A stretch of DNA of 64,000 bases, taken from Pantoea trifolii (GTDB lineage Bacteria > Pseudomonadota > Gammaproteobacteria > Enterobacterales > Enterobacteriaceae). This document shows, piece after piece, positions 8,452 through 33,397 of the stretch (its first letter is position 1; each line of letters begins with the position of its first letter). The stretch covers positions 124,001-188,000 of the forward strand of contig NZ_JANIET010000002.1 of NCBI RefSeq assembly GCF_024506435.1. Reading direction: 5' to 3'. The position numbers were made by a program, and so were the translations under genes. Below the pieces are notes generated by a model, which was not told the DNA's origin, did no database searches, and worked only from the letters and a program-made list of their open reading frames with translations.

Positions 8452-8496
8452 GGCCGATGTGAATTCCCCCTTTTTGAACATCCCGGAACCGGCGCT

Positions 8497-9441: not shown

Positions 9442-9622
9442 CGGCCGCCTCATCAGCACGCAGGCAAACAGCCTGAGCGAATTGCTGATCGAGCAGCAAA
9501 TTGACGCGGCCTGCGTCGCCACCGCCTACAACGGTGCGTTTGTGCCAAAAAGCCAGTACTACACGCAGCTGCTGGATGAAGGTTGCCAGCTTGAAGTGCT
9601 GTCACCGATGCAGGGAGGTTAA
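9425..9622 (+). CDS. thiS: Sulfur carrier protein ThiS
   Basis: 65-residue ubiquitin-fold carrier ending in the required Gly-Gly (LSPMQGG). ThiF adenylates this C-terminus, which is then converted to a thiocarboxylate that donates sulfur to ThiG. Length is normal. The ATG lies inside the end of thiO, and its own GGG-AGG codons serve as the ribosome binding site for thiG. Confidence 0.95.
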   Translation: MNIQLNGRLISTQANSLSELLIEQQIDAACVATAYNGAFVPKSQYYTQLLDEGCQLEVLSPMQGG

Positions 9623-9625
9623 GCG

Positions 9626-10384: not shown

Positions 10385-10395
10385 GGCAGGCAAAT

Positions 10396-11361: not shown

Positions 11362-12074
11362 ATCAGGACATTCTCTTCAACCATGTAAGCTTTAGCTGGG
11401 GCGATAAACCGCTGTGTCAGCGGCTGAATCTGCAACTGCGCGGCGGCAAAACCACGGTGATGCTGGGACGCAGCGGCATCGGCAAAAGTACGCTGCTGCG
11501 GCTGGTGGCCGGATTACTCAAGCCGCAGCAGGGCGCGGTGCAGGGCTTAAGCGGCAACGTGGCGTGGATGGGCCAGCAGGATCTGCTTTATCCATGGCTG
11601 ACGGTGCTCGACAACGTGATGCTGTCGGCGCGGCTCAGCGGCGAAAAGCCGGATCGTCCGCGCGCGCTGGCACTGCTGGAGCAGGTGAAACTCAGCGACG
11701 TGGCGCATGCGCCGCCGCAGCAACTTTCGGGCGGCATGCGGCAACGCGTGGCGCTGGCACGCACGCTCTATGCGCAGCGCGACGTAGTGCTGATGGATGA
11801 ACCTTTCGCCACGCTGGATGTGATGACCAAACTCAGCCTGCAAACGCTGACTGCCGAATTACTGCAAGGCAAAACCGTGCTGCTGGTGACGCACGATCCG
11901 CTGGAAGCGTGCCGCATGGCCGATGACATTCTGCTGCTGCAAGGCCAGCCGCTGGCCATCGAAAGCTGGCCGGTTCCCGGCGGTGACGCGCCGCGTGCGT
12001 TTGATCATCCCGACGTGCTGCAGGCGCAGGCTCAACTCTTCTCCCGACTGAATACCCATGAAAACACTGTTTAG
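11358..12074 (+). CDS. thiZ: ABC transporter ATP-binding protein ThiZ-like
   Basis: 238-residue ATPase of the NitT/TauT/Ssu class. Walker A GRSGIGKST (about residues 38-46), Q-loop AWMGQQDLLYPWLTV, signature LSGGMRQRVALAR, Walker B VVLMDEPFATLD and the switch His in LLVTHDPLEA are all intact. It is coupled to thiF by ATGA and overlaps the permease gene by 17 bases. The position downstream of a TPP riboswitch supports the ThiXYZ assignment: uptake of the thiamine pyrimidine (HMP) or its precursors. Confidence 0.88.
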   Translation: MNQDILFNHVSFSWGDKPLCQRLNLQLRGGKTTVMLGRSGIGKSTLLRLVAGLLKPQQGAVQGLSGNVAWMGQQDLLYPWLTVLDNVMLSARLSGEKPDRPRALALLEQVKLSDVAHAPPQQLSGGMRQRVALARTLYAQRDVVLMDEPFATLDVMTKLSLQTLTAELLQGKTVLLVTHDPLEACRMADDILLLQGQPLAIESWPVPGGDAPRAFDHPDVLQAQAQLFSRLNTHENTV

Positions 12075-12792
12075 CGCGATTTACCTGATCGTGGTGCTGC
12101 TGTGCGGTTGGCTGCTGGCGCGTCACAGCGGCGTGCCAACTTTCCTGCTGCCCGCGCCGCAGGCAGTGCTTGAAGCGCTGTGGTTGCATCGTCAACTGCT
12201 GTGGCATCACGCGCTCTATACGCTGGCGGAAATTGTGCTGGCGCTGCTGCTGGGCATCGGCGCGGGCGTGACGTTGGCGGTGCTGATGGCGGCCAGTCCG
12301 CTGCTGCGTCGCGTGCTGTTTCCGCTGGTCACCGCCAGCCAGGCGATTCCGGTGTTTGCCCTCGCGCCGCTGCTGGTGCTGTGGCTCGGCTTTGGTATCG
12401 CCTCGAAAGTAGTGGTGGCGGCCTTGATCCTGTTCTTCCCGCTGTGCTTATCGCTGTTCGATGGGCTGTGTCGCACGCCCAGCGGCTGGCTGGAACTGGC
12501 GCAAACCAGCACGTCATCGCGCTTTCGCATCTTCTGGCGCGTGCGCTGGCCCGCCGCGTTACCGCAATTTTTCTCTGGCCTGCAGATGGCGGTGGTGCTG
12601 GCGCCGATTGGCGTGGTGATTGGTGAATGGGTCGGTGCCAGCGAAGGGCTTGGCTATCTGATGATGCAATCCAACGCGCGCCTGGAAACCGCCACCAGCT
12701 TCGCAGCACTGCTGCTGTTACTGATTCTGGCGCTGCTGCTTTCGGGCAGCGTGGCGCTGATGCGTAAGAAACTCCTCTGGCAATCTACATAA
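12058..12792 (+). CDS. thiX: ABC transporter permease ThiX-like
   Basis: 244-residue inner-membrane permease of the NitT/TauT type with about six helices and a conserved cytoplasmic loop (ASQAIPVFALAPLLVLWLG in the membrane portion and RVRWPAALPQFFSGL in the coupling loop). Begins inside the end of thiZ and is followed by thiY after 9 bases. Together with thiZ and thiY it would import a pyrimidine moiety, complementing the thiazole made by thiOSGF. Confidence 0.87.
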   Translation: MKTLFSAIYLIVVLLCGWLLARHSGVPTFLLPAPQAVLEALWLHRQLLWHHALYTLAEIVLALLLGIGAGVTLAVLMAASPLLRRVLFPLVTASQAIPVFALAPLLVLWLGFGIASKVVVAALILFFPLCLSLFDGLCRTPSGWLELAQTSTSSRFRIFWRVRWPAALPQFFSGLQMAVVLAPIGVVIGEWVGASEGLGYLMMQSNARLETATSFAALLLLLILALLLSGSVALMRKKLLWQST

Positions 12793-12801
12793 GGAAGTAC
12801 C

Positions 12802-13731
12802 GTGAATACCCTACGAATCGCATTGACCGCGTTGCTGCTGCTGGCGACCGCTAACGTCCAGGCGGCGGAGAAAGTTCGTCTGCTGCTCGACTGGTTTATT
12901 AACCCCAACCACGCGGCGATTTTTGCTGCCCAGCACAGCGGCGCGTTTAAGAAAGAGGGGCTGGATGTGGAGATGATCGCGCCGGCCGATTCTGCTTCGG
13001 TGCCGTTGCTGCTGGCGGCGGGTAAAGTCGATCTCGCCATCAGCTACCAGCCGCAGCTCTACACGCTGGTGGATAAAGAGGTGCCGGTGATCCGCGTCGG
13101 CACGTTGATTAATCAGCCGCTGAATACGCTGACCACGGTGTCAGGCGATATCCACTCGCTGAAAGATTTCGCGGGCAAAACCATCGGTTATGCGGTGCCG
13201 GGCACCGAAGATGTGGCGATTCGCAATATGCTGAAATCACAGGGCGTTGATGCTGACTCGGTGAAGCTTATCAACCTGAATATGGATGGCACCTCCGCGC
13301 TCCTTACGCACAAGATTGATGGCGCGATGACCATCTTCCGCAACTACGAGCTGCTGGACCTGAAAGACAAAGGTGCCAAGCCAACGGTGTTTAAACCGGA
13401 AGATTATGGCGTGCCTGCTTATGATGAGCTGATCATTGTGGCAAACCAGAAAACTGCCGCGCAGGATAGACGCATTCCGGCGTTTTTAAGTGGTCTGGAT
13501 GCCGGTGTGGCGTGGCTGCGTGCACATCCGCAGGAAGCGTGGCAGGCGTTTATTAAGCAATATCCCGAGCTGAATACGCCGCTCAATCACGAGGCGTGGC
13601 AGGCAACGCTGCCGTATTTCGCCGCGCACAGTGCGGAGTTTGATCAGGCGCGCTATCAGGCGTTTGGTGAATATATGAAGGCCAATGGCGTGATTAAAGT
13701 TGTGGCACCTATGGCGCGATATTCGTTGTAG
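12802..13731 (+). CDS. thiY: Thiamine-pyrimidine precursor binding protein ThiY-like
   Basis: 309-residue periplasmic protein of the NMT1/THI5-like family. A signal peptide covers residues 1-21 (NTLRIALTALLLLATANVQA, cut before AEK). The mature start VRLLLDWFINPNHAAIFAA is characteristic of ThiY/NMT1 pyrimidine binders. The GTG start has AAGGAAG 6 bases upstream. In characterised ThiY the ligand is formylaminopyrimidine; whether HMP or formylaminopyrimidine is bound here cannot be read from the sequence. Last gene of the thiamine operon, followed by a large family C hairpin element. Confidence 0.88.
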   Translation: MNTLRIALTALLLLATANVQAAEKVRLLLDWFINPNHAAIFAAQHSGAFKKEGLDVEMIAPADSASVPLLLAAGKVDLAISYQPQLYTLVDKEVPVIRVGTLINQPLNTLTTVSGDIHSLKDFAGKTIGYAVPGTEDVAIRNMLKSQGVDADSVKLINLNMDGTSALLTHKIDGAMTIFRNYELLDLKDKGAKPTVFKPEDYGVPAYDELIIVANQKTAAQDRRIPAFLSGLDAGVAWLRAHPQEAWQAFIKQYPELNTPLNHEAWQATLPYFAAHSAEFDQARYQAFGEYMKANGVIKVVAPMARYSL

Positions 13732-13879: not shown

Positions 13880-13898
13880 GATAATGATATTTATTCTC
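13880..13898. promoter_or_regulatory. Fur box upstream of fepB
   Basis: GATAATGATATTTATTCTC matches the 19-base Fur consensus GATAATGATAATCATTATC at 16 of 19 positions and lies 25 bases before the chosen fepB start. Iron-dependent repression is expected. Confidence 0.85.
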
Positions 13899-13922: not shown

Positions 13923-14873
13923 ATGCGTTTCCCCGCTCTTTCTCTGCTACTTAGCCTGTTTTTCATTTGCACCCATGTACATGCCGACGCCGCCTGGCCG
14001 CGCACTCTCGCCACACCTAAAGGCCCGTTCACTCTCCAACAGCCGCCGCAGCGTATTGTCTCTACCAGCGTGACGTTGAGTGGCACTTTGCTGGCGATTA
14101 ACGCGCCGCTGGTGGGATCCGGGGCTACCAGTCGCAGCAGCAGCGTGTCGGATGCGCAGGGTTTTTTCACGCAATGGAGCGCAGTGGCAAAAGCGCGACA
14201 GGTTAAGCCGCTCTATATCTCGCAGCCGAATGCCGAAGCGATTGCCGCCGAAGCGCCAGATTTGATCGTGATGGCTGCCACCGGCGGCGATTCGGCGCTA
14301 CGCTTGTACGATCAGCTGCAAACCATCGCTCCGGTGTTAGTGATCGACTACGGCGACAAGAGCTGGCAGGCATTGACCTTGCAGCTGGGCGAGATTACCG
14401 GCCATGAAGCCGATGCTAAAAAGGTGATTGCAGCGTTCGACCAACGGGTAGACGCGGTGCGTCACAAGATCACGCTGCCGCCGCAGCCGACCTCTGCGCT
14501 GGTCTATTACGAAGATGGACGCGGAATGAACTTGTGGACGCCAGCATCGGCGCAGGGCGAGCTGTTGCAGGATTTGGGCTTCACGCTGGCCGCGCCGCCC
14601 GCCAGTTTTCAGGGCAGCACCAGCATGGGCAAGCGCAATGACATTATTCAGCTGAACGGCGAAAACATGGCCGATGGTATTACCGGCAACACGCTGTTAC
14701 TGTTCGCCGCCGATGAAAAAACCGTGCCGCAGGTGGCGAAGAATCCGTTCCTCGCCCATCTGCCTGCAGTACAGCAGCACGACATCTTTGCCGTAGGTAA
14801 CGACACCTTCCGCCTCGATTACTACAGCGCCAGCAATATGCTCAGCAGCATCGAGCGGCAGTTTAGCCGTTAA
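13923..14873 (+). CDS. fepB: Periplasmic ferric-catecholate binding protein FepB
   Basis: 316-residue binding protein that hands ferric catecholate siderophore to an inner-membrane FepCDG-type ABC transporter. The first 20 or so residues (RFPALSLLLSLFFICTHVHA) form a signal peptide from ATG 13923; an upstream in-frame reading from 13860 runs through the Fur box and is rejected. It follows E. coli FepB closely: PQRIVSTSVTLSGTLLAINAP, LIVMAATGGDSALRLYDQL, ITGHEADAKKV, LWTPASAQGELLQDLGFTLA and TFRLDYYSASNML. FepC, FepD and FepG are not in the window. Its stop overlaps the convergent exporter gene by 4 bases. Confidence 0.93.
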   Translation: MRFPALSLLLSLFFICTHVHADAAWPRTLATPKGPFTLQQPPQRIVSTSVTLSGTLLAINAPLVGSGATSRSSSVSDAQGFFTQWSAVAKARQVKPLYISQPNAEAIAAEAPDLIVMAATGGDSALRLYDQLQTIAPVLVIDYGDKSWQALTLQLGEITGHEADAKKVIAAFDQRVDAVRHKITLPPQPTSALVYYEDGRGMNLWTPASAQGELLQDLGFTLAAPPASFQGSTSMGKRNDIIQLNGENMADGITGNTLLLFAADEKTVPQVAKNPFLAHLPAVQQHDIFAVGNDTFRLDYYSASNMLSSIERQFSR

Positions 14874-16132
14874 GCATCGGCGGTGGCGGGTTGTGGCGCG
14901 TCCGGTTGTTCACCGAGGCGCGCCGAGCGCAGACCGCGCGCCGCCAGCGACAGCAGCACCAGCAATCCCGCCGCCAATCCGCCAAACCACAGTACGCTGC
15001 TCAGCGGTGCCAGCGCGCGAGCCAGCGCACCTAAACCTAATGCACCAACGGAATCGCCGGTGACATCCTGCGCGGTACCGAGGCTGTTGACGCGTCCCAG
15101 CAGCGCATCCGGCGTGTGATGCTGCGTCAGCATAAACTGCAACAGCGAGGCGATGGCGTTGCTGTAGCCGTAACACACCAGCGCCAGCAGCGCGGGCAGA
15201 AGATGGCTAAAAAGGCCGAGCGAGGCGATGCAGGCAAACGCCAGCAGCGCACAGCCAATCAGCACGAATCCCGGACGCGCCAACTGCCGCACCCAGCCGC
15301 TGGTAAAGGCACCGATCATCGCGCCCAGCGGCACCGCCGAGTACATCAATCCTAATGCGGACGCATCGGCGTGATAGGTCAGCGCCAGCGCCGGGAACAG
15401 AATACGCACCGCGCCAACCATGCTGAGCAGCAAGCCAACCAGCACTACCGCGCCAACCACTTTATGCTGGCAGACAAACTGCATGCCGCTTGCCAGCGCA
15501 CGCAGCGGATGCTCCGGTTCCTGCTGTTCGGGCTTCATCGACGGTAAACGCACCAGCGGAATCAGCGTCGCCAGCGTGCCCATCGCGGCGACCGCAAAGG
15601 CCCAGCCGACACCTGCCGCGACGATGATCATACCGCCGAGCGCGGGTGACAAAATCGCGCCGAGGCGCACCGTTAGCATGCTGAGCGCACCGGCTTCTGC
15701 CAGATGTTCACGTCCAACGATTAATGGGATCACCGCCATCAGCGCAGTCATGCCGAGCGCGCCAAAGAAGCCATCCCAAAAGGCGAGGAAGTAGAGCGCC
15801 AGTAACGACGGCGCTGGGCTGAAGGCGTTGAGGCTGAGCAGCACAAAGCCGATGCCGCAGGTGCCGCGTGCGAACAGGATTAGCTTGCGGCGATCGTAGC
15901 GATCGGCCAGCACGCCGCCGAGCAGCAGGCCGATAAACATGCCGATGCCGTCGAGCATGACCGCCACGCCGACCTGCAGCGTGGATCCGGTCATCGCCTG
16001 AATTTGCACCGGCACGCCAACCGCCAGCATGCCAAGGGCGAATACCGAGAGCATGCGCGCGCAGAATATCGCGCGGAACGATGCGTTGTTTTTGAGCAAA
16101 CTGAAATCTAAGAATATCGAGGGCTTAGCCAT
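14870..16132 (-). CDS. entS: Catecholate siderophore exporter, EntS-like MFS
   Basis: 420-residue 12-helix MFS protein, near in length to E. coli EntS (416) and aligned from end to end: FRAIFCARMLSVFALGML, GVPVQIQAMTGSTLQVG, GGVLADRYDRRKLILFARG, TCGIGFVLLSLNAF, FWDGFFGALGMTALMA, MLTVRLGAILSPALGG and LLGRVNSLGTAQDVTGD all have direct counterparts. It secretes the newly made siderophore to the periplasm. It is the last gene of the fes-ybdZ-NRPS-entS transcription unit, 63 bases after the NRPS. Confidence 0.92.
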   Translation of the reverse strand: MAKPSIFLDFSLLKNNASFRAIFCARMLSVFALGMLAVGVPVQIQAMTGSTLQVGVAVMLDGIGMFIGLLLGGVLADRYDRRKLILFARGTCGIGFVLLSLNAFSPAPSLLALYFLAFWDGFFGALGMTALMAVIPLIVGREHLAEAGALSMLTVRLGAILSPALGGMIIVAAGVGWAFAVAAMGTLATLIPLVRLPSMKPEQQEPEHPLRALASGMQFVCQHKVVGAVVLVGLLLSMVGAVRILFPALALTYHADASALGLMYSAVPLGAMIGAFTSGWVRQLARPGFVLIGCALLAFACIASLGLFSHLLPALLALVCYGYSNAIASLLQFMLTQHHTPDALLGRVNSLGTAQDVTGDSVGALGLGALARALAPLSSVLWFGGLAAGLLVLLSLAARGLRSARLGEQPDAPQPATADA

Positions 16133-16195: not shown

Positions 16196-19100
16196 TCAAC
16201 CCGCCAACAAACGATTAATCAACGGTCCCAACACCTTCAACGAATCCGCCGAAAGAATATCGGCGTGCTCGCAATCCAGCGGGAAAATGGTTAATTCATC
16301 AACGAACGGTGCCCAACTGGCGCGCACATCCATATCCGGCGGCAGCGTTTTTTCCGCCATAAACAGCGTGGCGTTGCCGGCATAACGCGGGGTGCGCGCT
16401 TCGGCGAGGCGCGCCACGGCGTCTTTGTAGTTGGCGACGATGGTGCTAAACATCGCCGCCTTCTCTTCACGCAGCAGCGGATCGCGCTCATCCTCGGTCG
16501 CAGCCATAAATTCAGCCTGCTCTCGCGCCACTTCCTGTTCCGCCTCATCGGCATCTGGCGTGCGCCAGTCCTGACCTTCTGCCGGATAGGTATCCAACAG
16601 GCCAAGGAATGCCACCGTTTCACCCTGCGCCTGCAAACGTGCCGCGATGCCTTGCGCCAGCGTGCCGCCGAGTGAATAGCCGAGCAGGAAATAAGGGCCG
16701 CTCGGCTGCTGCTGGCGAATCGCCTGCAGATGGTGATCGCACATCGCTTCCACGCTGTGACACGCGGCAATCACGCCATGTGGACGCGGCGATTGCAGGC
16801 CGACAATCGGGAAGTCGCCGTCGAGATAATGCAGCAGGGCGCTGTACTGCCAGGCGAAGCCGGATGCCGGATGGATGCAGAACAGCGTCGGGCCGTGACC
16901 AGCGCGCAGCGGCAGCAGTTCGCCGTTACCACCGCTTTCACTGTTGGCACCGCCGTCGAGCAGCGCCGCCAGTTTCTCCACGCTGCGCGCGGCGATGATC
17001 TGCCCGACGCTGAGCGGCGGCACCTCGCGACGACGCAGTTCCGCCGCCAGACGCATTGCCAGCAGCGAATGACCACCGAGCGCGAAGAAATCATCGTCGG
17101 CAAATACGCTGTCGCAACCGAGCAGCTGCTGGAACAGATCCGCCAGCAGACGCTCGTTGGCGCTGTGCGGCAGGCGACCGCTGCGCGCGCTGAGCTGCGG
17201 CATCGGCAGCGCTTTACGATCCAGCTTGCCGTTGGCGCTGAGTGGCAGATGGTCGAGCAGCAGATAGCTGACCGGCTGCATATGCGCCGGCAGACGTTCA
17301 CCCAGCTGCTGCTTCACCGTTTCGATATCCAGCGCTGCGCCCGCTTCGGCCACCAGCCAGCCGAGCAGCTGACGGTTATCGACGCCCGGCGTGGCGTGCT
17401 GCGTCAGCGTACGCGCCGCGACCACTGCCTGTGCTACGCCCGGCAGCGCCACTAACGCCTGTTCGATTTCACCTGGCTCGATACGCTGTCCGCGCATCTT
17501 CAGCTGATCGTCGCTGCGGCCGAGATACTCCACCGCACCGTCAGCGCGCCAGCTGGCGATATCACCGGTGCGATACATGCGCTCGCCTTCGGCAAACGGC
17601 GCGGCGACAAAGCGCTGTGACGTGAGGTCGGCGCGATGCAAATAGCCATCGGCCAGCTGCACGCCGCTGAGATAGAGATCGCCTGGCACGCCAACTGGCA
17701 CCGGACGCAGCAGGCTATCGAGAATATGCAGCTGCGTGTTCCACACTGGACGGCCAATCGGCACGCCCGGCCCGTTGAGGCCGTCCAGCGCGCTGCCGCT
17801 GGCCGGTTGCCAGGTGACATCGACGGCGGCTTCGGTTGGGCCATACAGATTGTGCAGCGGCGCGGCGATAACCGCCTCATAGCTGCGCGCCAAATCGCAC
17901 GCCAACGCTTCACCGCTGCAGAATACGCGGCGCAGCGTCGGGCAAGCCCGATCGGTTTGCGCGGCGAGATGGCCGACAAAGGCCGCCAGCATCGACGGCA
18001 CGAAGTGCATGGTGGTCACACGATAATCGTCGATCAGCTGCCACAGCGCCTGCGGATCGCGATGCGCTTCCGGCGGTGCCATCATCAGCTGCGCGCCGGT
18101 CATCAGCGGCCAGAAGAATTCCCACACCGAAACATCAAAGCTGCACGGCGTCTTCTGCAACACAACGTCGTCAGCGCGCAGCGGATAGCTGGCCTGCATC
18201 CAGCGCAGGCGGTTGACGATGGCGCGTTGATTCACCACCACGCCTTTCGGTTTGCCGGTTGAGCCGGAGGTATAAAGCACGTAAGCCGGGCGACTGGCAT
18301 CCGCCTGCGGCAAAGCGTGGCGCGGCTGAATGTGTTCAGCGGCTAAGCCATCAAACATCATCAGCGTGCCAAACGCAGCGAAGCGGGTTTCCAGCGCGGA
18401 TTCGGTGATCAACACCCAAGGCCGCGCATCTTCTACCATGTAAGCCAGACGTTCATCGGGATAACCGATATCCAGCGGCAAGTACGCCGCGCCCGCCTGC
18501 AGGATGGCAGTGAGCGCAATGCTGAGACGCACCGAGCGCGGCAGCGCCACGGCAACGATATCGCCCGGCATCACGCCCGCTTCAATCAGGCGATCCGCCA
18601 GCAGCATGGCCTGACGCTGCATTTCGCCGTAGCGCAGACGATGCTCCATATCCATTAGCGCCAGCGCGTCTGGCGTGCGGGCTGCCTGCTGAGCAATCGC
18701 CTGTTGCAGGGTTTCATTTTCCAACTGCACGCCGGTGTTGTTGACCCAGGCGAGCAGCGATTGCTCGGCCAGCGTTTGCAACTTCCACTGCGTCAGCGGC
18801 AGATCCGGCGTGCTGACCAGCTGTTGCAGTAGCAATTGCAGCCGCTCGGCCAGACGTTCCGGCTCGCTGACGCAGTCGCGATACTCCATCAGCAACGTCA
18901 GCTGTTCGCCCGGCAGCACCAGCAGCGTCAGCGGATAGTGCGTGTAACCACGATTGTGAATCGCTTCGCAGCGTACGGCGGCGTTGGCATCCAGCAGCAT
19001 TTGGTTGTCCGGATAGTTCTCCACCACCAGCAAGGTATCGAACAGCGTACCCACGCCGACCAGCTGCTGGATCTCGGCGAGACCGAGGCAATCCTGCTCA

Positions 19101-22100
19101 ATCAGCTGGATTTGCTGCGCCTGATGATCGGCGAGCTGTGCCAGCAAAGGACGTTGATGATCGAAGCGCAGGCGCACCGGCAACGTGTTGCTGAACAGGC
19201 CAACGTGCTGATCGATGCCGTCAATCTGGCCAAAACGGCCAGAAACCGGCGCACCAAACACCACGTCTTGCTGGCCGCTGGCGACCGACAACATTAAGCC
19301 CCACAATCCCTGCATCACGGTGTTCAGGGTTAAGCCGCGCGTCCGGCACAGCGCGTAGAGCTCCCGCTCCAGCGTGACATCCAGCGTAATGCGCTTTTCG
19401 TTGACCGCGCTGTCGGCGGCCTGCGGATAGAGCAGCGTCGGACGCACCTCTTGCAGGCATTCCTGCCACTGCTGCCGCGCTTCATCGCTGTCGCGCTGGC
19501 TGAGCTGACGCACAATGTCGGCGTAGCTGCTGCTGTGTGCGGGCAAGGTTTGCTGACGCAGTGCGCTGAGCAGATCGTTGAGGATCACTGGCGTTGACCA
19601 GCCGTCCACCACCAGATGATGCGCGTTGAGCAGCAGCGTCCAGCGCATGCCATCGCGATGGGCGATCAGCGTGGCGTGCAGCATGATCGGCTGGCTAAAC
19701 AGATCCTGCGCCAGCGCCTGATGTTCCAGCGCCACAATGTCATCGTCGTCGGCTAGCTGATGCAGTGTTAGCGGCCAGTGCAATTGCGTTTCAGGTATCA
19801 GCTGTAGCGGCTGCAGGCTGAGTTCAGCGTCGAAGCGCGCCGCCAGCTGTGGATGGCGCTGTAACACCGCGTCGAGCGCGGTTTGTACCGCTGCGGGGCT
19901 GATATCGCCGCTGATTGTCAGGCGGGTTAACGAGTTATAGCTGCCTTGCTGCGCGGTGGTTTGCGCGTGGAACAGCAGACCTTTCTGCAAGGGCAACAGC
20001 GGCAGCACATGGCTGAACGTGCCGTGACGCGCAAGCAGTTGTTGCAGCAGCGCATCATCAACGCCTTCCAGCGCCACCTCGGCGGCCACCAGCGTATTGG
20101 CGGCGTGCTGCGGCTGCTGTTGTGCTAGCGTGATCAGCGCCTGCGCGGCAGCGGCCATTGCCTGATGTAAATCGGCAATCGCCTCGGCGTTGAGTACGCC
20201 TTCCGCCCAGCTCCAGTTCAGCGCCAGCTGCGCCGCGTTTGGCTGCTCCTCAACGAAAACGTTGAGTTCCAGCGCGTGCTGCAGCGGCAGCGCCTGATCC
20301 TGCAACACCGCAAAGGTGTCGCGGAACTGCCGCGCGGTGCGCTGTGGCGACCAGTCACCGCTGCGCTGCGTGAAGCGTCCAAGGTAGTTAAACAGCACCT
20401 GCGGCGCGTGTTGTGCTGCCAGTTTTTCCATCGTCACGCCGCGATGCGCATCAAGCCAGCGCAGCTGACCGTAGCCAATACCGCGATCCGGCACCGCACG
20501 CAGCACCGCTTTCACTGCGCGTACGCACTCATTGAGCGGCGCGTGGGGATTTTCGGGTAACGGCAGCAGCAGCGGGAATTCCGCCGTCAGCCAGCCGACG
20601 GTGCGCGCCAGATCCTGCTGTGCATGCAGTTCGGCACGACCATGCGACTCCAGCGTGACGCGCTGCTGTGCGCTGCCGTTGAGTTGGCGCAATGCCATCG
20701 TCAGCAGCGTCAGCAGCAGCTCTTCGCTGGTGGCGCGATAGTGTTGCGGCAGCGTGTTGAGTAGCGCGTGGGTAGTCGAGGCATCCAGCAGCGTGCGTTG
20801 ATGCTGGTGGCGATTGCTGGGCTTAATTGGTCGTTCACCGACAAGTGGCAGCGGTTCTGCCAGCATCTGTTGCCAGAACGGTAATTCCGAGGCGCGCGCC
20901 GAGAGATTTGCCAGCAGCGCCGCTGACCAGTCATGTAGCGAGGTTTCCTCGGAGGGGATCACCAGCGGCGTGTTATTGATCAGCGCGTCACCGGCCTGTT
21001 GCAGCTCATCCAGCAATACGCGCCACGATACGCCATCAACAATCAGGTGATGCAGCGTCAGCACCAAACCACAGCTGATACCGTCTTGCTGAAGCAGCGT
21101 GGCGCGAAGCAGCGCGCCGTTTGCCGGATCGAGCGCCTCCGCATCTTCGCTAAACGCCTGTTCCGCTGCGCGGTCGCGATCCTGCACCTCAAGCACACGC
21201 ACGCGGGCAGGGCGCGACGCCAGCGCTTCGCCAACAAATAGCTGATCGCCGCGCGTGAAGGCGTTGAGCGCCGGATGCGCCTGCGCCAGCTGATCGATCA
21301 ACTGTTCCAGCTGTGCGAGTTGCAACTGCGGCGGCACCGACAGCAGCACGCCGTGCGCAAAGCGCGCATTGATGCCCGCCTGGGCGTTGAACCAGTGCAG
21401 AATCGGCAAGCCGCCAATCGCGCCCTGTTGCGCTACGCGCACGCCAGTGTGGTGCTGCGCCAGCGGCTGCAAATCCCGCGCCATGCGTGCGGCGGTGCGT
21501 TCGGCAAAGATTTCGCGTGGACGCAGCAGATAACCGGCGCGACGTGCGGCGGTGCTGAGCCCCATCGCTGAGATGCTGTCGCCGCCGAGTGCGAAGAAAT
21601 CATCTTCTGCACCAACGCTCTCCAGCCCCAGCAGGCTGGCAATCGCGTGGCAAATCAGCTGCTCCTGCGGCGTGCTGGCGGCGCGACTCTGGCTCTGCTG
21701 CGCCTGTTGTGGCTTCGGCAGCGCCTGGCGATCAATCTTGCCGTTAACGTTGAGTGGCAATTCGTCCATCACCATCAATACCGCAGGCACCATGTAATCC
21801 GGCAGCTGCGTGGCCAGTTGCGCCAGCAAACGGGCGCTGAGATCGGCATCGGCGCGCAACGCGTCATCCTGCACCGAGCAGTAACCAATCAGGCGATGCG
21901 TGGCACCTATCACTTCGGCGATCACCACGGCGGTGCTGACTTCCGGCAGCGCCACCAGCGCGTTTTCCACTTCACCGAGTTCAACGCGGAAGCCGCGCAC
22001 TTTAATCTGGTGATCGGTACGGCCAATAAACGCCAGCTGACCATCCTGCCGCCAGCGCATCAGGTCGCCGCTGCGGTACATCACATCGCCGTCGCGGAAG

Positions 22101-24598
22101 GGGTTGGCGACGAAGCGTCCGCTGGTGAGATCGGGACGGCGCAGATAACCGCGCGCGATGCCGGTTCCGGCGATATACAGCTCGCCAGCGCAGCCAATCG
22201 GAACCTGACGCAGCTGGTTATCCAGCAGATAGACGTCGCTGTTGCCCACCGGACGACCAATTATCGGCTGCGGTGACGCCATGACGCTGGCGCCCAGCGT
22301 ATCGATGGTGTATTCCGACGGGCCATAATAGTTGTGGATCTCCATCTGCTGCTGTTGCTGCATCAGCTTCCACAGCGTTGGCGTGGCGGCTTCCCCGCCA
22401 ATCATCACGAAGGAGGGACGATGGTTATCGGCTTCCAGCAGACCGCTGTCGATCATCTGCGAGAAGAACGACGGGGTGATATCCAGCAAGTCAACCGGCA
22501 CCGCGTTCATCTGCTGAATCAGCCCCCACGCATCGCGGCGCAGCTCTTCGTCGAAGATATTCAGCTCGCAGCCCATCAGCATGCAGAACAGCGGTTCCCA
22601 TGAAGAATCGAACGAGAAGGAGGCGGTGTGACCGGCGCGCATGCGGCGCGGGCTGTTGGCAGTGAAGCGCGCAATCGCCGGGCCGAACAAATGCTCGCGG
22701 TGCGACAGGTACAGATTGAGCAAACCTTGATGGGTGCTCATCACGCCTTTCGGGCGGCCGGTCGAACCTGAGGTGTAAATCATGTAGGCCAGATCGTCGC
22801 CGCACAGTTGGGTATCAGGTCGTGCGGTGGAATAATCGCTCAATACAAGCTGGTCAATGCGCAGATGCGGCAACTCAGGCATTTGCGCCAGCGTGCTGGA
22901 GTGCGTCAGCAGCAGCTTAGGCTGCGCGTCATCACACATCAGCGCCAGGCGTTCGCGTGGATAATCGAGATCGAGCGGCATATAGGCCGCGCCGCTCGCC
23001 AGCACGCCGAATATCGCCACCAGAGAATCCACTGAACGTGGAATACCAATCGCCACTACGTCGTCCGCTTGTAAACCGCGTGCGATCAGCAGGTGCGCCA
23101 GTTGCATCGCGCGATCGGCGAGCTGGCGATAGCTGAGGCTGCGCTCGGCGCACACCACCGCAGTTTGCGCGCCGTATTGCTCCGCAGCTTGCAACAGGAT
23201 ATCGACGATGGTGCAGGTATCGGCAGGCGGCACGATGGTGGGGCCGGTCGACCAGCGTTGCAGATCGATCTGCTCCTGCGGCGCCAGCAATGACAGCGCG
23301 CCCAGGCTCATGTTGGCATCCGCCGCGAACTGCGTGAGCAGATGGCTGATACGCTCGGCGTGACGTTGTAGCGTTTGCGCATCGTAGCGGCGCGGGTTAG
23401 CCACCAGTGTGAGCTGTAATACGCCATCGCGGAAGCCGACTTCAAACTCCAGATCGTCTACCGGGCCCATCGCCAGCGTGTGGGTTGGGGCAGCATGGCC
23501 GTCGAATTGCAGATCGTCGTGGTAAACCTTGACGTTAATCACCGGGCCATACAGCGTCTGGCTGCTGCCGACCAGGCCGAGATCGCGGCGCAGCTGTTCT
23601 GCTTCATAGCGCTGATGACGGCGCGCTTTGCGGATTTCGCCTTGCACCTGCTGCACCAGCATCGGCAACGTCATCTCATCGCTAACGGTGAAAATCAGCG
23701 GCAACACGTTGACCACCGGGCCGAGCGTGGAAATCGCCGCCGAACCCATGCGGCGCATAAACGGGAAGCCAATCGACAAACGTTGGCTGTTGCTGAAGCG
23801 GGCCAGATAAGCCACCAACAGCGCGCTGACGATATCGCCTTCGCTACTGTCGGCCAGTTGTTGTTGCTGACGCAGCGTGGCCAGTTGCGGCAGCGTGACC
23901 TGACAGCTGATCGGACGATCGCCATGATCGCTCACATTTTCGCTGGACAGCGTCAGCGTCTCTGGCAGATCCGCTGCGTAGCTTTGCCAGTGGCTAGCGG
24001 AGCGCGCATATGCAGGTGAATCCTGCCACTGCTGAATCTCTTCAATCACCGTGGTGAACGGGGTAAACGGCGAGGGCGCGGGCGTTGCTCCGGCGCAAAG
24101 GGCGGCATAGATCGCCGCGACGCGTTGGGTCAGCGCTTCAAAACTGAAACCATCCACCAGCAAATGGTGATAGCGCTGATACCACAGCCAGCTGCCGTCG
24201 CCGATGCGCATCAGCGCGTGACGATAAAGCGGTTTGTCGCCGTCGGCGGGCAGCTCGGCGGCGAGATCGGCCTGCATTAGTTTGTGCGCCTGGCTGCTCG
24301 CATCGGCACGCTGGCTGAAATCGTGCCATTCCGGCGCGACCGGCGCTTGCGCATCAAACCACTGCGCCGGATTGCCATTATCGTCAAGGCCGAAGCGCGC
24401 CTGCACAGTATCGGCTTCCGCCATCGCTTGCTGAATGGCGCTGTCCAGCGCCGCCCGATTGATGTTGCCGTGCAGCACGCTGTAGTGCGCCACGGTAAAT
24501 TGGTTGCGCGGCTGCGCAATGCTGTCAGCGATCCAGATGCCGGGCTGCGCCGCGACTAAAGGATAGGCCGCTGAAGGGGCCGGATTAAACGTTGCCAA
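16196..24598 (-). CDS. Two-module siderophore NRPS, C-A-T-E-C-A-T-TE (CbsF/VabF type)
   Basis: 2800 residues, against about 1290 for one-module EntF. Order read from motifs: C1 (HHLLVDGFSF near 146); A1 (YTSGSTGRPKG near 613, NYYGPSEYTID, IKVRGFRVELGEVE); T1 (LGGDS near 1005); epimerization domain (PILHWF, HHLIVDGVSW near 1186, LESHGR, RTVGWLT, FNYLG near 1403); C2 (HHLVVDGWS near 1663); A2 (YTSGSTGKPKG near 2114); T2 (LGGHS near 2508); TE (GYSLGG near 2641, Asp in LLDTYP, His in DCEHADI). A2 residues D-V-W-H-F-S-L-V-D equal the EntF serine code. A1 residues D-S-E-D-M-G-Y-I-D are acidic at 239 and 278, which suggests a cationic amino acid made D by the E domain. The start is TTG with AGGA 8 bases upstream. 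The likely product is DHB-D-cationic-L-Ser, oligomerised by the TE. Confidence 0.92.
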   Translation of the reverse strand: MATFNPAPSAAYPLVAAQPGIWIADSIAQPRNQFTVAHYSVLHGNINRAALDSAIQQAMAEADTVQARFGLDDNGNPAQWFDAQAPVAPEWHDFSQRADASSQAHKLMQADLAAELPADGDKPLYRHALMRIGDGSWLWYQRYHHLLVDGFSFEALTQRVAAIYAALCAGATPAPSPFTPFTTVIEEIQQWQDSPAYARSASHWQSYAADLPETLTLSSENVSDHGDRPISCQVTLPQLATLRQQQQLADSSEGDIVSALLVAYLARFSNSQRLSIGFPFMRRMGSAAISTLGPVVNVLPLIFTVSDEMTLPMLVQQVQGEIRKARRHQRYEAEQLRRDLGLVGSSQTLYGPVINVKVYHDDLQFDGHAAPTHTLAMGPVDDLEFEVGFRDGVLQLTLVANPRRYDAQTLQRHAERISHLLTQFAADANMSLGALSLLAPQEQIDLQRWSTGPTIVPPADTCTIVDILLQAAEQYGAQTAVVCAERSLSYRQLADRAMQLAHLLIARGLQADDVVAIGIPRSVDSLVAIFGVLASGAAYMPLDLDYPRERLALMCDDAQPKLLLTHSSTLAQMPELPHLRIDQLVLSDYSTARPDTQLCGDDLAYMIYTSGSTGRPKGVMSTHQGLLNLYLSHREHLFGPAIARFTANSPRRMRAGHTASFSFDSSWEPLFCMLMGCELNIFDEELRRDAWGLIQQMNAVPVDLLDITPSFFSQMIDSGLLEADNHRPSFVMIGGEAATPTLWKLMQQQQQMEIHNYYGPSEYTIDTLGASVMASPQPIIGRPVGNSDVYLLDNQLRQVPIGCAGELYIAGTGIARGYLRRPDLTSGRFVANPFRDGDVMYRSGDLMRWRQDGQLAFIGRTDHQIKVRGFRVELGEVENALVALPEVSTAVVIAEVIGATHRLIGYCSVQDDALRADADLSARLLAQLATQLPDYMVPAVLMVMDELPLNVNGKIDRQALPKPQQAQQSQSRAASTPQEQLICHAIASLLGLESVGAEDDFFALGGDSISAMGLSTAARRAGYLLRPREIFAERTAARMARDLQPLAQHHTGVRVAQQGAIGGLPILHWFNAQAGINARFAHGVLLSVPPQLQLAQLEQLIDQLAQAHPALNAFTRGDQLFVGEALASRPARVRVLEVQDRDRAAEQAFSEDAEALDPANGALLRATLLQQDGISCGLVLTLHHLIVDGVSWRVLLDELQQAGDALINNTPLVIPSEETSLHDWSAALLANLSARASELPFWQQMLAEPLPLVGERPIKPSNRHQHQRTLLDASTTHALLNTLPQHYRATSEELLLTLLTMALRQLNGSAQQRVTLESHGRAELHAQQDLARTVGWLTAEFPLLLPLPENPHAPLNECVRAVKAVLRAVPDRGIGYGQLRWLDAHRGVTMEKLAAQHAPQVLFNYLGRFTQRSGDWSPQRTARQFRDTFAVLQDQALPLQHALELNVFVEEQPNAAQLALNWSWAEGVLNAEAIADLHQAMAAAAQALITLAQQQPQHAANTLVAAEVALEGVDDALLQQLLARHGTFSHVLPLLPLQKGLLFHAQTTAQQGSYNSLTRLTISGDISPAAVQTALDAVLQRHPQLAARFDAELSLQPLQLIPETQLHWPLTLHQLADDDDIVALEHQALAQDLFSQPIMLHATLIAHRDGMRWTLLLNAHHLVVDGWSTPVILNDLLSALRQQTLPAHSSSYADIVRQLSQRDSDEARQQWQECLQEVRPTLLYPQAADSAVNEKRITLDVTLERELYALCRTRGLTLNTVMQGLWGLMLSVASGQQDVVFGAPVSGRFGQIDGIDQHVGLFSNTLPVRLRFDHQRPLLAQLADHQAQQIQLIEQDCLGLAEIQQLVGVGTLFDTLLVVENYPDNQMLLDANAAVRCEAIHNRGYTHYPLTLLVLPGEQLTLLMEYRDCVSEPERLAERLQLLLQQLVSTPDLPLTQWKLQTLAEQSLLAWVNNTGVQLENETLQQAIAQQAARTPDALALMDMEHRLRYGEMQRQAMLLADRLIEAGVMPGDIVAVALPRSVRLSIALTAILQAGAAYLPLDIGYPDERLAYMVEDARPWVLITESALETRFAAFGTLMMFDGLAAEHIQPRHALPQADASRPAYVLYTSGSTGKPKGVVVNQRAIVNRLRWMQASYPLRADDVVLQKTPCSFDVSVWEFFWPLMTGAQLMMAPPEAHRDPQALWQLIDDYRVTTMHFVPSMLAAFVGHLAAQTDRACPTLRRVFCSGEALACDLARSYEAVIAAPLHNLYGPTEAAVDVTWQPASGSALDGLNGPGVPIGRPVWNTQLHILDSLLRPVPVGVPGDLYLSGVQLADGYLHRADLTSQRFVAAPFAEGERMYRTGDIASWRADGAVEYLGRSDDQLKMRGQRIEPGEIEQALVALPGVAQAVVAARTLTQHATPGVDNRQLLGWLVAEAGAALDIETVKQQLGERLPAHMQPVSYLLLDHLPLSANGKLDRKALPMPQLSARSGRLPHSANERLLADLFQQLLGCDSVFADDDFFALGGHSLLAMRLAAELRRREVPPLSVGQIIAARSVEKLAALLDGGANSESGGNGELLPLRAGHGPTLFCIHPASGFAWQYSALLHYLDGDFPIVGLQSPRPHGVIAACHSVEAMCDHHLQAIRQQQPSGPYFLLGYSLGGTLAQGIAARLQAQGETVAFLGLLDTYPAEGQDWRTPDADEAEQEVAREQAEFMAATEDERDPLLREEKAAMFSTIVANYKDAVARLAEARTPRYAGNATLFMAEKTLPPDMDVRASWAPFVDELTIFPLDCEHADILSADSLKVLGPLINRLLAG

Positions 24599-24648: not shown

Positions 24649-24870
24649 TTAATGCGCGGTAGACGACGTCTGTTGCGTCGCTGGCCGCATGTCGTGCCAG
24701 TTTGCTTCGATAAACTCAATGGCGGCGCTGCGCGTCAGCGGTCCCGCCACGTTGTGCCAGCCTGCCGGAACCGGAGCAAAAGCCGGCCACAGGCTGTATT
24801 GCTGACGCGCGTTGAGCAGCACCAGAAAATCGAGCGTGTCGTTATCAAACGGATTCTGTTGTTCAGACAT
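24649..24870 (-). CDS. ybdZ: MbtH-like NRPS accessory protein (YbdZ)
   Basis: 73-residue MbtH family protein that binds and activates adenylation domains. NPFDN at residues 6-10, QQYSLWPAFAPVPAGWHNV and the C-terminal EFIEANWHDMRP carry the conserved Trp and Pro residues of the family. The ATG overlaps the fes stop by 8 bases (translational coupling), and the NRPS starts 50 bases later. Same order as fes-ybdZ-entF in E. coli. Confidence 0.96.
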   Translation of the reverse strand: MSEQQNPFDNDTLDFLVLLNARQQYSLWPAFAPVPAGWHNVAGPLTRSAAIEFIEANWHDMRPATQQTSSTAH

Positions 24871-26233
24871 GGTTATTACCTTCAGAAGGTGAGGTTGTAG
24901 GGAGAAAATCGGCCAGCAGCCAGCGGCAGCCGTCGATCAGACCGCCGCGCCAGCACAACGCATCGTGCCCTCCGGCGAAGCGGCGAAAATGTAATTCATG
25001 GCCTGCGGCTTGCAGCGCCGGGACGATCTGCTGGTTGACGTACACCATGTCTGCCTCGCGATCGCCCACTTCCTGGAAAATCTTCAGCTTGCCCGGCGGT
25101 AAATCGCCCTGTTGCAGCCGTTCCAGTATCAAACCCGGCGCGTGCTGCTCGCGGTTGGCGTAGTCGCGGATGTATTGCAGATGCGGCCACCAGAAGGAGC
25201 CGGATTGCGTGAGAATGCGGCCAAAACGCTGCGGCCAGTGCAAACCCGCATACAACGCGGCAAGTCCGCCATAGCTTTGTCCGGCCACCAGCGTGCGATC
25301 GGCGTCGCCGCTGAACGCTGCGTGCTGGCGTGCCAGCGGTAACAGTTCCTGCTGCACCGCCTGCCAGAAGGTTTCATTGCACGGCAATTCGGCTTCGCGA
25401 TGCTGGCTATCGATGACATCGATAAACAGCCAACAGGCGGGCGGAAGTTCGCCATCGGCGGTGACCTGATCCAGCGCGCTGAAAATCGGTTGGCCGTACA
25501 CCCAGTTTTGTCCGTCGAGTAGGATCGCCAGCGGACGCTGTTCGGGCTGAGTTGTTGTGCCGGTGCTGTAGAGCCAGACGTTACGCGTGACGTTGAGCAA
25601 CGTGCTGTGCCACTGCAGGGTTTGCAGCGTATCTGGCCAGGTTTCCGCCATGCCGGCATCCAGCGCGCGCCAGGCGGATTGATCCGGCGCATCCGGCATG
25701 TGCGCATTGCTTAAGGCAAAACGGCGGCTGCTGAGAAACGGCGGCGTGGGATTGAATTTGTCGGGGATCGCCAGCGGCATCAGCGAGATCCACCACTTGC
25801 GCTGTAGCGCGCGACAGGCGGCATCGTCGCCACAAAACTGCGGCGGCAACTGCTGTGCGGTGGCGGGAATCAGGCTGTAACTGCCGCGCCAATCAGATTC
25901 AATGGCGGTCAACCAATGCCAGACGTTGCTGTCGCCCACGCGAACCAGACTTTCTGGCGCTTCGCTGTGGTGATCGGTGACGCCGTTAATATCGACGTAA
26001 ACCCGTTCGGTGGAAGAAACTGCGGAATGTCCTTCGGGATCGCGCCAGAAGAAGTGCATGGTCGTTTGGCCATTTTCGTCACGCTCAACCAGCGGCGTAC
26101 CGACCGCATAAAGCCGCTGCCACCAGCCTTCGCTACCCAAATCCGCCTGCTGCAACCATTGCGCAACTGTCCCGGCGGGCAACCACGTCTGCGTCGTTTT
26201 TTCTGCGCTTGTTAGAAACATCCTGCAACCCAT
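24863..26233 (-). CDS. fes: Ferric-enterobactin-type esterase Fes
   Basis: About 456-residue cytoplasmic esterase that cleaves serine trilactone siderophores to release iron. N-terminal Fes domain (VYVDINGVTDHH, WHWLTAIESDWRGSYSLIP) and C-terminal esterase D-like domain (AILLDGQNW, nucleophile in AGQSYGGLAALYAGL, LTQSGSFWW, FRRFAGGHDALCWRGGL with the catalytic His) are complete. Start is uncertain: ATG 26233 (used), ATG 26221 or GTG 26237. First gene of the fes-ybdZ-NRPS-entS operon, behind a probable Fur site. A trilactone-type esterase suggests the NRPS product is a macrolactone. Confidence 0.93.
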   Translation of the reverse strand: MGCRMFLTSAEKTTQTWLPAGTVAQWLQQADLGSEGWWQRLYAVGTPLVERDENGQTTMHFFWRDPEGHSAVSSTERVYVDINGVTDHHSEAPESLVRVGDSNVWHWLTAIESDWRGSYSLIPATAQQLPPQFCGDDAACRALQRKWWISLMPLAIPDKFNPTPPFLSSRRFALSNAHMPDAPDQSAWRALDAGMAETWPDTLQTLQWHSTLLNVTRNVWLYSTGTTTQPEQRPLAILLDGQNWVYGQPIFSALDQVTADGELPPACWLFIDVIDSQHREAELPCNETFWQAVQQELLPLARQHAAFSGDADRTLVAGQSYGGLAALYAGLHWPQRFGRILTQSGSFWWPHLQYIRDYANREQHAPGLILERLQQGDLPPGKLKIFQEVGDREADMVYVNQQIVPALQAAGHELHFRRFAGGHDALCWRGGLIDGCRWLLADFLPTTSPSEGNNHV

Positions 26234-26271
26234 CTCCACATTTTGTTCACTGTCTTTACTTAACCAAAGCT

Positions 26272-26305
26272 AATGCAAATGCTATTGATAACGATTTACA
26301 TTTGC
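26272..26305. promoter_or_regulatory. Probable Fur site in fes/receptor divergent promoter
   Basis: GATAACGATTTACATTTGC (26287-26305) matches 13 of 19 bases of the Fur consensus, and the adjoining AATGCAAATGCTATTGATAAC (split as AATGCAAATGC and TATTGATAAC) gives an overlapping second site. It lies in the only intergenic region shared by fes (-) and the receptor gene (+), so both would be iron-repressed. Confidence 0.65.
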
Positions 26306-26490: not shown

Positions 26491-28686
26491 ATGGCAACTA
26501 TGTCCGTTAAAGCAAGAAATTCAGCAATACCTGCTGTGGCACGTCAATTCAGACTTAATCCTCTGTACCTTTCTCTGGCCTCAATTCTGTTGGTGGCACC
26601 GGCTGCCTTCAGCGTGGCCGCCGAAGAGACCCTTACCGTAAACGCCGACACGCGTGAAAGCGTGACCTCGCCGCTGCAAGGTTATGTGGCGAAAGAGAGC
26701 GCGGCGGGCACCAAAACGTCCACGCCTCTGCGCAAAACCCCGCAATCCATTTCGGTGATTACCCGTGAGCAGATGGACGATCAAGCCGCGGCTTCTGTTG
26801 CCGATGCGTTGAGCTACAGCAGCGGCGTGCTGACCAACTATCGCGGTAACTCCAACCGAAACGATGAGATCATCGCGCGCGGTTTCCGCTATGCGCCGAA
26901 ATTCCTCGATGGCCTGAGCTACGGTTTATCCGGCCAGGCGGGCGCAGCGGGGCAGATCGATCCTTGGTTGCTGGAGCGCGTAGAGATGATCCACGGCCCA
27001 GCATCTGTGCTGTATGGCCAGGTGAATCCAGGCGGCATTGTGGCGATGACCAGCAAGCGCCCAACCGCGCAGAGCATTCACAAAGTACAGCTCAGCACCG
27101 GCAACCAGCATTTGGGTGAAGCGGCGTTTGATTTCGGCGGCAAGCTGAATGATGACAACACGCTGTTCTACCGCCTGAACGGTATCGCCAGCACCAAACA
27201 TGAGTTCGTGAAGGACAATAAACAGCAGCGTATGGCGATTGCGCCAGCGATGACCTGGCTGCCAAACGCGGATACCAGCTTTACGCTGCTGACCATGTAC
27301 CAGAACGAGCCGAAAGCGGGTTATCGTAACTTCCTGCCGGCCAGCGGTACGTTGAAAGAGAGCAGCGCGGGTTACATTCCTTACGATTTCAACGTCAGCG
27401 ATCCGAGCTTCAACGAAGCCAAACGCGAACAGACCTCGATCGGCTATATCTTCGAGCACAATCTCAACGACAACCTGAGCTTCACGCAGAATCTGCGCTA
27501 CAGCAACATGGACGAATCGTACAAATATCTGGTGTATACCTTTGATGCGGATAACGATCACTCAATCAACCGTCGTCCGCAGCATGACAAGATCAAGTCG
27601 AAAGAGTTGGGCCTGGATAACCAGCTGAAAGCCACTTTTGAAACCGGCAACATCGCGCACACCGTGCTCGGCGGGCTCGATTACAAGTGGAGCGACGTGG
27701 ATAACAAACTGTGGCTCGACAGAGGCGATCAATACATTCTCGATTGGGCCAATCCAACGCGTATCAGCATCAACGAGAGTGATTTGACGTTGACTACCAG
27801 CACGCGCAAGAAGCTCGATCAGGTGGGCGTGTATTTGCAGGATCAGCTGGAGTGGAATCAGTGGAACCTGCTGCTCTCCGGACGTCACGACTGGAGCGAA
27901 GTGCGCACTCAGGATCGCACCGATAACAGCCAAACCCAGCAGAATGACAACAAGTTCACCGGCCGTGCAGGTCTGCTGTATGCCTTCGATAACGGCATTT
28001 CACCGTACGTCAGCTACAGCACCTCGTTCGAGCCCAACCTCAACAGCGGCGCGCCAGGCACCGATCCGTTCAAACCGACTACCGGCGAACAGACCGAAGT
28101 GGGCGTGAAGTATCAGCCGGTCGGTTGGGATGCGGTGTTCACCGTGTCGGCATTTGATATCACGCAAAAAAACATCACGGCGTATAACAGCGTGACCGGC
28201 TACAACGAACAGATTGGTAAAGTGCGTTCGAAGGGTATCGAAACCGAAGCGCATGCGCAGATTACGCCGGAGATCAAACTGTTAGCGGCTTATACCTATA
28301 CGGATGCGGTGACCAAAGAGAGCAGCATTACGGAGCGTATCGGTCATTCACCATCGAGCATTCCGCGTCATGCGGCGTCGGCGTGGGGCAGCTACACCTT
28401 CCTCGATGGCGTGCTGAGCGGCTTTACGCTGGGCAGCGGCGTGCGTTACACCGGCACCGCGCCAGCGGACGAAATTGGCGTCGACAAAGTCCCGCATTAC
28501 ACCTTGTATGATGCGATGGCCAAGTATGAGCTGGGCGAAGCGGCGAATTCGCTGCGCGGCACCACGCTGCAACTGAACGTCAACAATATCGCGGATAAGC
28601 ATTACGTAGCGTCATGCAGTAACGAAAGCGCCTGCTTCTACGGCAGCGGTCGCACCATCGTAGCGTCCGTCAGCTACAGCTGGTAA
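26491..28686 (+). CDS. TonB-dependent siderophore receptor (FhuA/Fct/FoxA-like)
   Basis: 731-residue outer-membrane receptor. An extended signal sequence ends near AAFSVAAEE, then comes a TonB box (EETLTVNAD, about residues 46-54), a plug domain ([42 protein letters not shown] string split at residues 165-185) and a 22-strand barrel ending in the aromatic residue W (VASVSYSW). The plug resembles FhuA/FoxA/FcuA-type receptors rather than FepA. The chrysobactin receptor Fct is, as I recall, also of this branch. ATG 26500 is an alternative start. Divergent from fes and probably takes up the product of the local NRPS. Confidence 0.9.
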
Positions 28687-31951: not shown

Positions 31952-31960
31952 GGAGATTCG

Positions 31961-33388: not shown

Positions 33389-33397
33389 GGACCACCG

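Follow-up and report, generated by a model that had tools for sequence, protein, structure and literature searches.

The 64-kb window, meaning the whole stretch of DNA analysed here, carries a gene for a two-module nonribosomal peptide synthetase (NRPS) of the chrysobactin synthetase (CbsF) type (16196–24598, minus strand), which would most likely make chrysobactin, built from dihydroxybenzoate (DHB), D-lysine and serine. In our preferred reading, to which we assign a probability of roughly 80%, this synthetase would be fed with DHB by EntE and EntB encoded on another contig of the same genome (C1), would be served by private export, uptake and release genes, and would probably share the FepDGC transporter of C1. 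The system is of a known kind; its decoupled layout is the noteworthy part, and similar layouts are partly in print.

Results

The window encodes a complete two-module synthetase

In the ORF list of the window, the gene forms one open reading frame of 2800 aa with a TTG start codon. Pfam searches returned three Condensation-type stretches, two AMP-binding and two AMP-binding_C domains, two PP-binding domains and one thioesterase (TE) and, together with motif scans, define the layout C(starter)-A(Lys)-T-E-C-A(Ser)-T-TE in a single protein, the epimerization (E) domain being scored by Pfam as one of the three Condensation-type stretches. The motif scan placed HHxxxDG motifs at residues 144, 1183 and 1660, A3 at 608 and 2109, A5 at 756 and 2250, A8 at 859 and 2360, A10 at 952 and 2456, the carrier serine motif at 1001 and 2504, and the TE motif GYSLGG at 2640. 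These data confirm the C-A-T-E-C-A-T-TE order with intact core motifs claimed by an earlier note on this DNA. A frame of such length, with every motif in order, excludes chance: the ORF is real and complete.

The E domain with its flanks (residues ~1050–1520; 20039–21451, minus strand), which served as the search key for NRPS relatives, retains the HHLIVDGVSW and ESHGR motifs. It is predicted to epimerize lysine to D-Lys, so that the D-configuration proposed earlier holds as a prediction from an intact-looking domain. The putative TE triad, which we take from EntF biology to be Ser2642/Asp2669/His2778, is present and invariant across a nine-sequence alignment.

The adenylation pockets point to lysine and serine

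The A-domain pockets were read by eye from sequence blocks in the TnbF register, with nine positions read and the tenth (Lys) assumed; A1 is one residue shorter than A2 around position 239, so the automatic pocket alignment is misplaced there. The A1 pocket, DSEDMGYID, is identical at 9/9 positions to that of the Dickeya protein P0087, which carries the database label chrysobactin synthetase. The A1 pocket of the vanchrobactin synthetase VabF (P0155, D-Arg), DAEDLGFVD, agrees with it at five of nine positions and differs at four. With the final Lys, both pockets match the TnbF code DSDDGGLVDK at 6/10, which supports the register, since the turnerbactin paper gives a 60% match to that code for CbsF and VabF (PMC3795760). 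Over the whole domain, A1 is 68.5% identical to P0087, 42% to VabF and 35% to the strain's own EntF. At the correctly aligned positions, the printed pockets of the two-module relatives have D, M, G, Y, (I or V) and D in common, with the sole exception of P0069. The A2 pocket, DVWHFSLVD, is a serine code, identical to the published one (PMC3795760). The cationic first residue of the earlier proposal is thus narrowed to a predicted lysine, and serine as the second residue is upheld by the Ser-type pocket. Our best prediction for the product is DHB-D-Lys-L-Ser (chrysobactin) and its oligomers.

Pocket codes alone do not separate Lys from Orn or Arg, and the name of P0087 is a database label only. 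Module 1 might therefore activate another cationic residue (D-Arg, D-Orn or a mixture) and yield a chrysobactin analogue: the acidic pocket residues suit any basic side chain, and several positions are common to the Arg- and Orn-type pockets of this family. We consider this unlikely, because every position read fits the chrysobactin pocket, whereas VabF departs from it at four, and because A1 is much closer to the Dickeya protein than to VabF. A vanchrobactin-type D-Arg residue was rejected on the same pocket difference.

Compatible with chrysobactin as the product, but the less probable of the two outcomes, is that the strain makes mainly the monomer and no trimer. We know of no sequence feature that tells a monomer from a trimer outcome. 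Excerpts of PMC8480324 contrast D. dadantii 3937 with D. chrysanthemi EC16, a maker of both the cyclic trimer and chrysobactin, in line with a monomer. By contrast, the TE of the window's NRPS is 69% identical to that of P0087, a Fes-type esterase is encoded beside the NRPS, and a Chromobacterium cluster with an E domain yields viobactin, which is cyclic trichrysobactin, according to the available part of PMC13251462. The adjoining Fes had been read earlier as a sign of a cyclic trimer. This argument is weak, because fes lies beside the NRPS in each of the related clusters examined and because related triscatechols were found only in linear form, as reported in excerpts of PMC8480324. That paper lists [M+H]+ values of 370.17, 721.31 and, for the linear trimer, 1072.44 in the Lys series; subtraction of water gives about 1054.43 for a cyclic trimer, compared with 670.15 for enterobactin (PMC13251462).

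Neighbouring genes are those of a chrysobactin-type locus

The gene order at the locus is receptor, fes, mbtH, NRPS, entS, fepB. A second FepB-type periplasmic binding protein (13923–14873, plus strand; 57% identical to the FepB of C1) was given the start of an annotated relative (951 bp in the plasmid pSOD02), the ORF list having 13860. It is followed by a second EntS-type MFS exporter (14870–16132, minus strand), 55% identical to the EntS of C1. On the other side of the NRPS lie a 73-aa MbtH-like protein, homologous to YbdZ (24649–24870, minus strand; PF03621, 4.8e-22), and a second Fes-type ferric-siderophore esterase (24863–26239, minus strand; PRK10439.1, 2.3e-165; motif GQSYGG), 46% identical to the chromosomal Fes, whose true start may lie further inside, the pSOD02 relative measuring 1359 bp. 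Profile and sequence searches thus verified the four neighbours named in the earlier note (fepB, entS, mbtH/ybdZ and fes), whose list lacked the TonB-dependent receptor. This receptor (26491–28686, plus strand), divergent from fes, resembles FhuA/FoxA in profile matches, unlike FepA, and is 59–70% identical to the NRPS-side receptors of 15 linked chrysobactin-type loci, that is, loci with the DHB genes nearby. The shell had been attributed to enterobactin; since linked chrysobactin-type clusters have the same genes around their NRPS, it is better assigned to a chrysobactin locus.

With a Fur consensus taken from general knowledge, a Fur-box-like site matching at 16 of 19 positions was detected directly upstream of the fepB start (13880–13898, plus strand), and overlapping sites, the best matching at 14 of 19, between fes and the receptor gene (26281–26305). 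When the 16.3-kb region was Markov-shuffled 40 times, no copy reached a score of 16; the real sequence has two positions scoring at least 14, compared with a mean of 0.075 in the shuffled copies. We infer that the cluster may be iron-regulated.

Upstream of fepB lies a thiamine-related cluster (8362–13731, plus strand) with a ThiO-like oxidase, ThiG, a ThiF-like protein and an ABC transporter with an NMT1/THI5-like binding protein. Thiamine-type genes are also found near the siderophore cluster on pSOD02, where a LuxR-type regulator and an inverse autotransporter gene (L030:24765–29149) separate fepB from the thiamine-transporter binding-protein gene; the window has only about 130–190 bases at that place. 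On the other flank, ORFs at 30617–33715 (plus strand) match, by order and length, the PTS transporter and glycoside hydrolase family 1 genes of pSOD02. Further upstream on the same contig (105561–110412; L007:1561–6412) lies a protein of 1308 aa that matches AMP-binding, carrier and thioesterase domains but no condensation domain, and an Indigoidine_A-like protein comes next; the pair looks like an indigoidine-type pigment synthetase.

The DHB genes lie on another contig

As stated in the earlier note, the DHB genes are absent from the window: no match to entA, entB or entC was found in its 64 kb, and the entE search returned only the A domains of the NRPS, at 23–25%. The genome measures 5.06 Mb and is in three contigs; the window belongs to C2 (776 kb), and C1 has 4.16 Mb. 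The plasmid records closest to C2 are from Pantoea and span 729–927 kb, and pSOD02 is circular, so C2 is most likely a megaplasmid, and we take C1 to be the chromosome.

C1 carries an enterobactin locus with entC, E, B, A, F and S, fepA, B, C, D and G, and fes. The genome has four condensation-domain matches, three in the NRPS and one in the single-module EntF frame of this locus (1321–1324 aa). Because a separate EntF lies there, the NRPS is an additional synthetase; the earlier idea that it replaces EntF was rejected. One DHB-AMP ligase and one isochorismate synthase score above curated cut-offs in the whole genome, both in the C1 locus, and its entCEBA is the only DHB operon found. The presence of DHB genes elsewhere in the genome, as anticipated, is thereby established, the charging itself being predicted. 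The notion that a lack of nearby DHB genes means a lack of product was likewise discarded in view of this operon. EntB of C1 has both isochorismatase and carrier domains and keeps the GLDS carrier motif, and all three PPTase-family genes of the genome are on C1. In tblastn searches, no MbtH match was found around the C1 enterobactin locus (stretches L005 and L006) or the corresponding locus of G024 (L188); the MbtH of the plasmid might therefore act for the two synthetases alike. We predict that the strain produces enterobactin as well as the second siderophore. Consequently, a mass spectrum of plain enterobactin, which the earlier note had regarded as refuting its proposal, would not do so.

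We propose that the NRPS locus most likely borrows the DHB part of its product from the chromosomal enterobactin genes. The entCEBA operon of C1 would supply EntE and EntB, with EntE loading the aryl carrier domain of EntB with 2,3-dihydroxybenzoate, and the starter C domain would pass DHB to the lysine held on the first carrier. The E domain would convert Lys to D-Lys, the second module would add L-Ser, and the TE would free DHB-D-Lys-L-Ser or link such units through serine esters. The EntS-type exporter, the FhuA/FoxA-like receptor, the second FepB and the second Fes would be dedicated to this siderophore. The inner-membrane step would probably go through FepDGC of C1, because C2 has no strong FepDG-like permeases: FecCD-type permease searches gave seven strong matches on C1 and two weak ones on C2 (37 and 30.5 bits).

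Separation of DHB genes from the pathway that uses them has precedents. In V. anguillarum, the DHB genes are split between plasmid and chromosome (available sections of PMC5524678); acinetobactin cannot be made without an entA that lies outside its own cluster (excerpts of PMC3343012); and Kushneria and Paracoccus, with entF far from the DHB genes, still have enterobactin (available part of PMC13251462). Sharing of a carrier protein between synthetases is nevertheless not guaranteed: according to the same sections of PMC5524678, the carrier domain of AngB could not be substituted by that of VabB.

Related loci and co-occurrence with DHB genes

In Brenneria alni (L032) and Xenorhabdus bovienii (L031), the locus reads entA-B-E-C, receptor, fes, mbtH, NRPS, fepG, fepD, entS, fepB. 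The window and ten other same-genus stretches of 20 kb each share the order receptor, fes, mbtH, NRPS, entS, fepB, with no match to entCEBA or fepDG. Judged by its gene content, the window cluster is a chrysobactin locus without entCEBA and fepDG. Both sets are also missing from the viewed 36 kb of a 150-kb Serratia grimesii plasmid, typed as conjugative, and an Erwinia aphidicola plasmid lacks entCEBA and keeps fepDG (36 kb viewed of 83 kb). A 92% identical NRPS (over the searched region; P0006) comes from a plasmid labelled Enterobacter ludwigii, which reflects either a recent transfer or a mislabelled Pantoea. In Pantoea YR343, the NRPS copy is 96% identical over the region searched. The same cluster as in the window, at ~79% DNA identity, is found on a plasmid labelled Pseudomonas silvicola (CP093281.1, L107).

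These relatives bear on whether the NRPS might be a surplus gene, silent or in decay, from which this strain obtains no product. It has no DHB genes at its side, and some relatives are broken or split: the frame of G221 has 569 aa, the P. silvicola copy is annotated in several pieces, and the receptor and fes of G036 align piecewise over several frames. However, the window holds a full-length frame with its motifs, ten other same-genus genomes have full-length frames (2805–2816 aa) with 76–95% E-domain identity, the MbtH, Fes, receptor, exporter and binding-protein genes are all kept, and Fur-like sites are present. We therefore consider decay very improbable and retain the reading of a functional synthetase fed from C1.

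Co-occurrence was scored in 61 genomes of the genus, the window's included, with an E-domain match at E ≤ 1e-60 as the mark of the NRPS. The NRPS was found in 11/61, entE in 42/61 and an EntF-type match in 43/61. All 11 NRPS genomes have the window layout, and carry entE and a full-length EntF (single-module frames of 1324–1367 aa, with no internal stops) on contigs other than that of the NRPS; the association between NRPS and entE gives a one-sided Fisher p = 0.010, phylogeny ignored. Across 392 genomes of the family (E domain at E ≤ 1e-100; entE at E ≤ 1e-180, with at most three candidates per genome, so that further copies may be missed), the NRPS occurs in 25 and entE in 178, and each of the 25 has entE (p = 1e-9, phylogeny again ignored). 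The entCEBA genes lie near the NRPS in 15 of these 25 and not near it in nine, G350 being cut by a contig end. In G424, entB adjoins the receptor gene, with entC, E and A about 1.6 Mb distant. On the far side of the NRPS, no entCEBA match was found in the seven unlinked genomes outside the genus or in G024.

A separate EntF at 56–100% identity is present in 6/9 unlinked versus 1/15 linked genomes (p = 0.0037), but this contrast depends on the definition of EntF: G177, G280, G350 and G409, all of one genus, encode proteins of 1293–1313 aa that align with most of EntF at 32–33% identity, and counting these gives 6/9 versus 4/15 (p = 0.067, G350 left out). The sole linked genome with EntF in the strict count, G074, has two entE copies. 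Two of the nine unlinked genomes, G410 and G424, have no separate EntF, so the NRPS need not strictly be accompanied by a complete enterobactin locus in the host; in G221, the only EntF match in the ent locus is partial, cut by the end of the stretch. G410 carries entCEBA on another contig, 62–80% identical to the Pantoea genes, and has no EntF-like match (E ≤ 1e-150) outside the NRPS, so its unlinked DHB operon plausibly serves the distant NRPS; this is the best sequence evidence in our analysis for such service. With regard to the resident loci, entA was not seen in the ent-locus stretches of G378, G434 and G312, and EntF matches in G060, G025 and G076 are interrupted by a TGA, which may mean that some resident copies of EntF are damaged or wrongly assembled.

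In a 38-row tree of the E-C2 region, built by a quick method, the 11 same-genus copies form one clade. G410 pairs with E. aphidicola, both unlinked, and this pair, like an unlinked group that includes the S. grimesii plasmid, stands apart from a mostly linked clade that contains Dickeya. The linkage label changes at least twice on this tree, and the unlinked state is clustered. With the Vibrio outgroup, a history of three losses and one of a single loss plus a regain would fit similarly, by reasoning rather than computation; the forks that decide between them have SH-aLRT values of only 82 and 87.

Discussion

Our results correct two likely misreadings of this locus, one as an altered EntF that replaces enterobactin, the other as a frederiksenibactin cluster. 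By our prediction, these Pantoea draw on one DHB pool for two catechol siderophores that differ chemically. More broadly, we lean towards a recurring plug-in, in which a chrysobactin synthetase with its private export, uptake and release genes sits on plasmids or at separate loci in Pantoea, Erwinia-like and Serratia-like lineages and would work only with EntB-bound DHB of the host, and often its FepDGC. One DHB operon would then yield two siderophores, and in G410, where EntF is apparently gone, the operon would have been kept for the plug-in alone. If such borrowing is true, a plasmid with about six genes could confer a second catechol siderophore, and mining that requires DHB genes beside the NRPS would overlook such clusters. 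In the literature searched, mostly outside subscription journals, we found no chemical demonstration that Pantoea makes a chrysobactin-type product, and the available parts of the Pantoea YR343 proteomics literature yielded nothing on this NRPS. Chrysobactin-type clusters named by antiSMASH, with no chemistry in the portions available, are reported from Erwinia rhapontici and an Enterobacteriaceae bin (PMC13188922, PMC12215834).

Among known systems, EntF shares the second module with the NRPS (A2 62% and TE 51% identical to the strain's own EntF), but is a single C-A-T-TE module, whereas the NRPS has an additional C-A-T-E module in front. The NRPS scores below the curated EntF cut-off (1903 versus 2400 bits), and so does the EntF of C1 (1989 bits). 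Vanchrobactin synthetase VabF has the same C-A-T-E-C-A-T-TE order and the logic of DHB, a D-cationic residue and L-Ser, but its Arg-type pocket is not found in the NRPS. In a related type of locus from Vibrio sp. MEBiC08052 (L033), unlike in the window, matches to entB, entE and entC lie close by.

Frederiksenibactin, made by FreF of Yersinia, combines DHB, Lys and Ser, as predicted for the NRPS, and excerpts of PMC10834434 show that antiSMASH named a frederiksenibactin cluster in P. trifolii and some other Pantoea. However, in the available text of PMC8480324, which also gives Lys-series masses, CbsF has an E domain and FreF has none; frederiksenibactin was rejected, as the window NRPS has an E domain with its motifs. 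Y. frederiksenii FreF was not among the matches listed for the Yersinia query (120 of 7972).

In S. marcescens Db10, a chrysobactin-like NRPS, 64% identical to chrysobactin synthetase, lies apart from an enterobactin-like cluster and is flanked by export, uptake and iron-release genes. According to the available extracts of that study (PMC4117218), the product of this NRPS was not determined, and a note in proof ties the enterobactin-like cluster to serratiochelins.

Also among the closest systems is the cbs locus of Dickeya. CbsF has the domain order, the E domain and both the A1 and A2 pockets of the NRPS, and the divergent fes and TonB receptor of hydroxamate-receptor type are present in the window as expected of a cbs locus, the Fct receptor of Dickeya, we assume, resembling hydroxamate receptors. 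The linked chrysobactin-type loci of Brenneria and Xenorhabdus have MbtH, Fes, the divergent receptor, EntS and FepB as in the window. In contrast to the cbs locus, the window has no entCEBA and fepDG beside the NRPS, and its cluster lies on a megaplasmid-like contig of a genome with a resident enterobactin locus.
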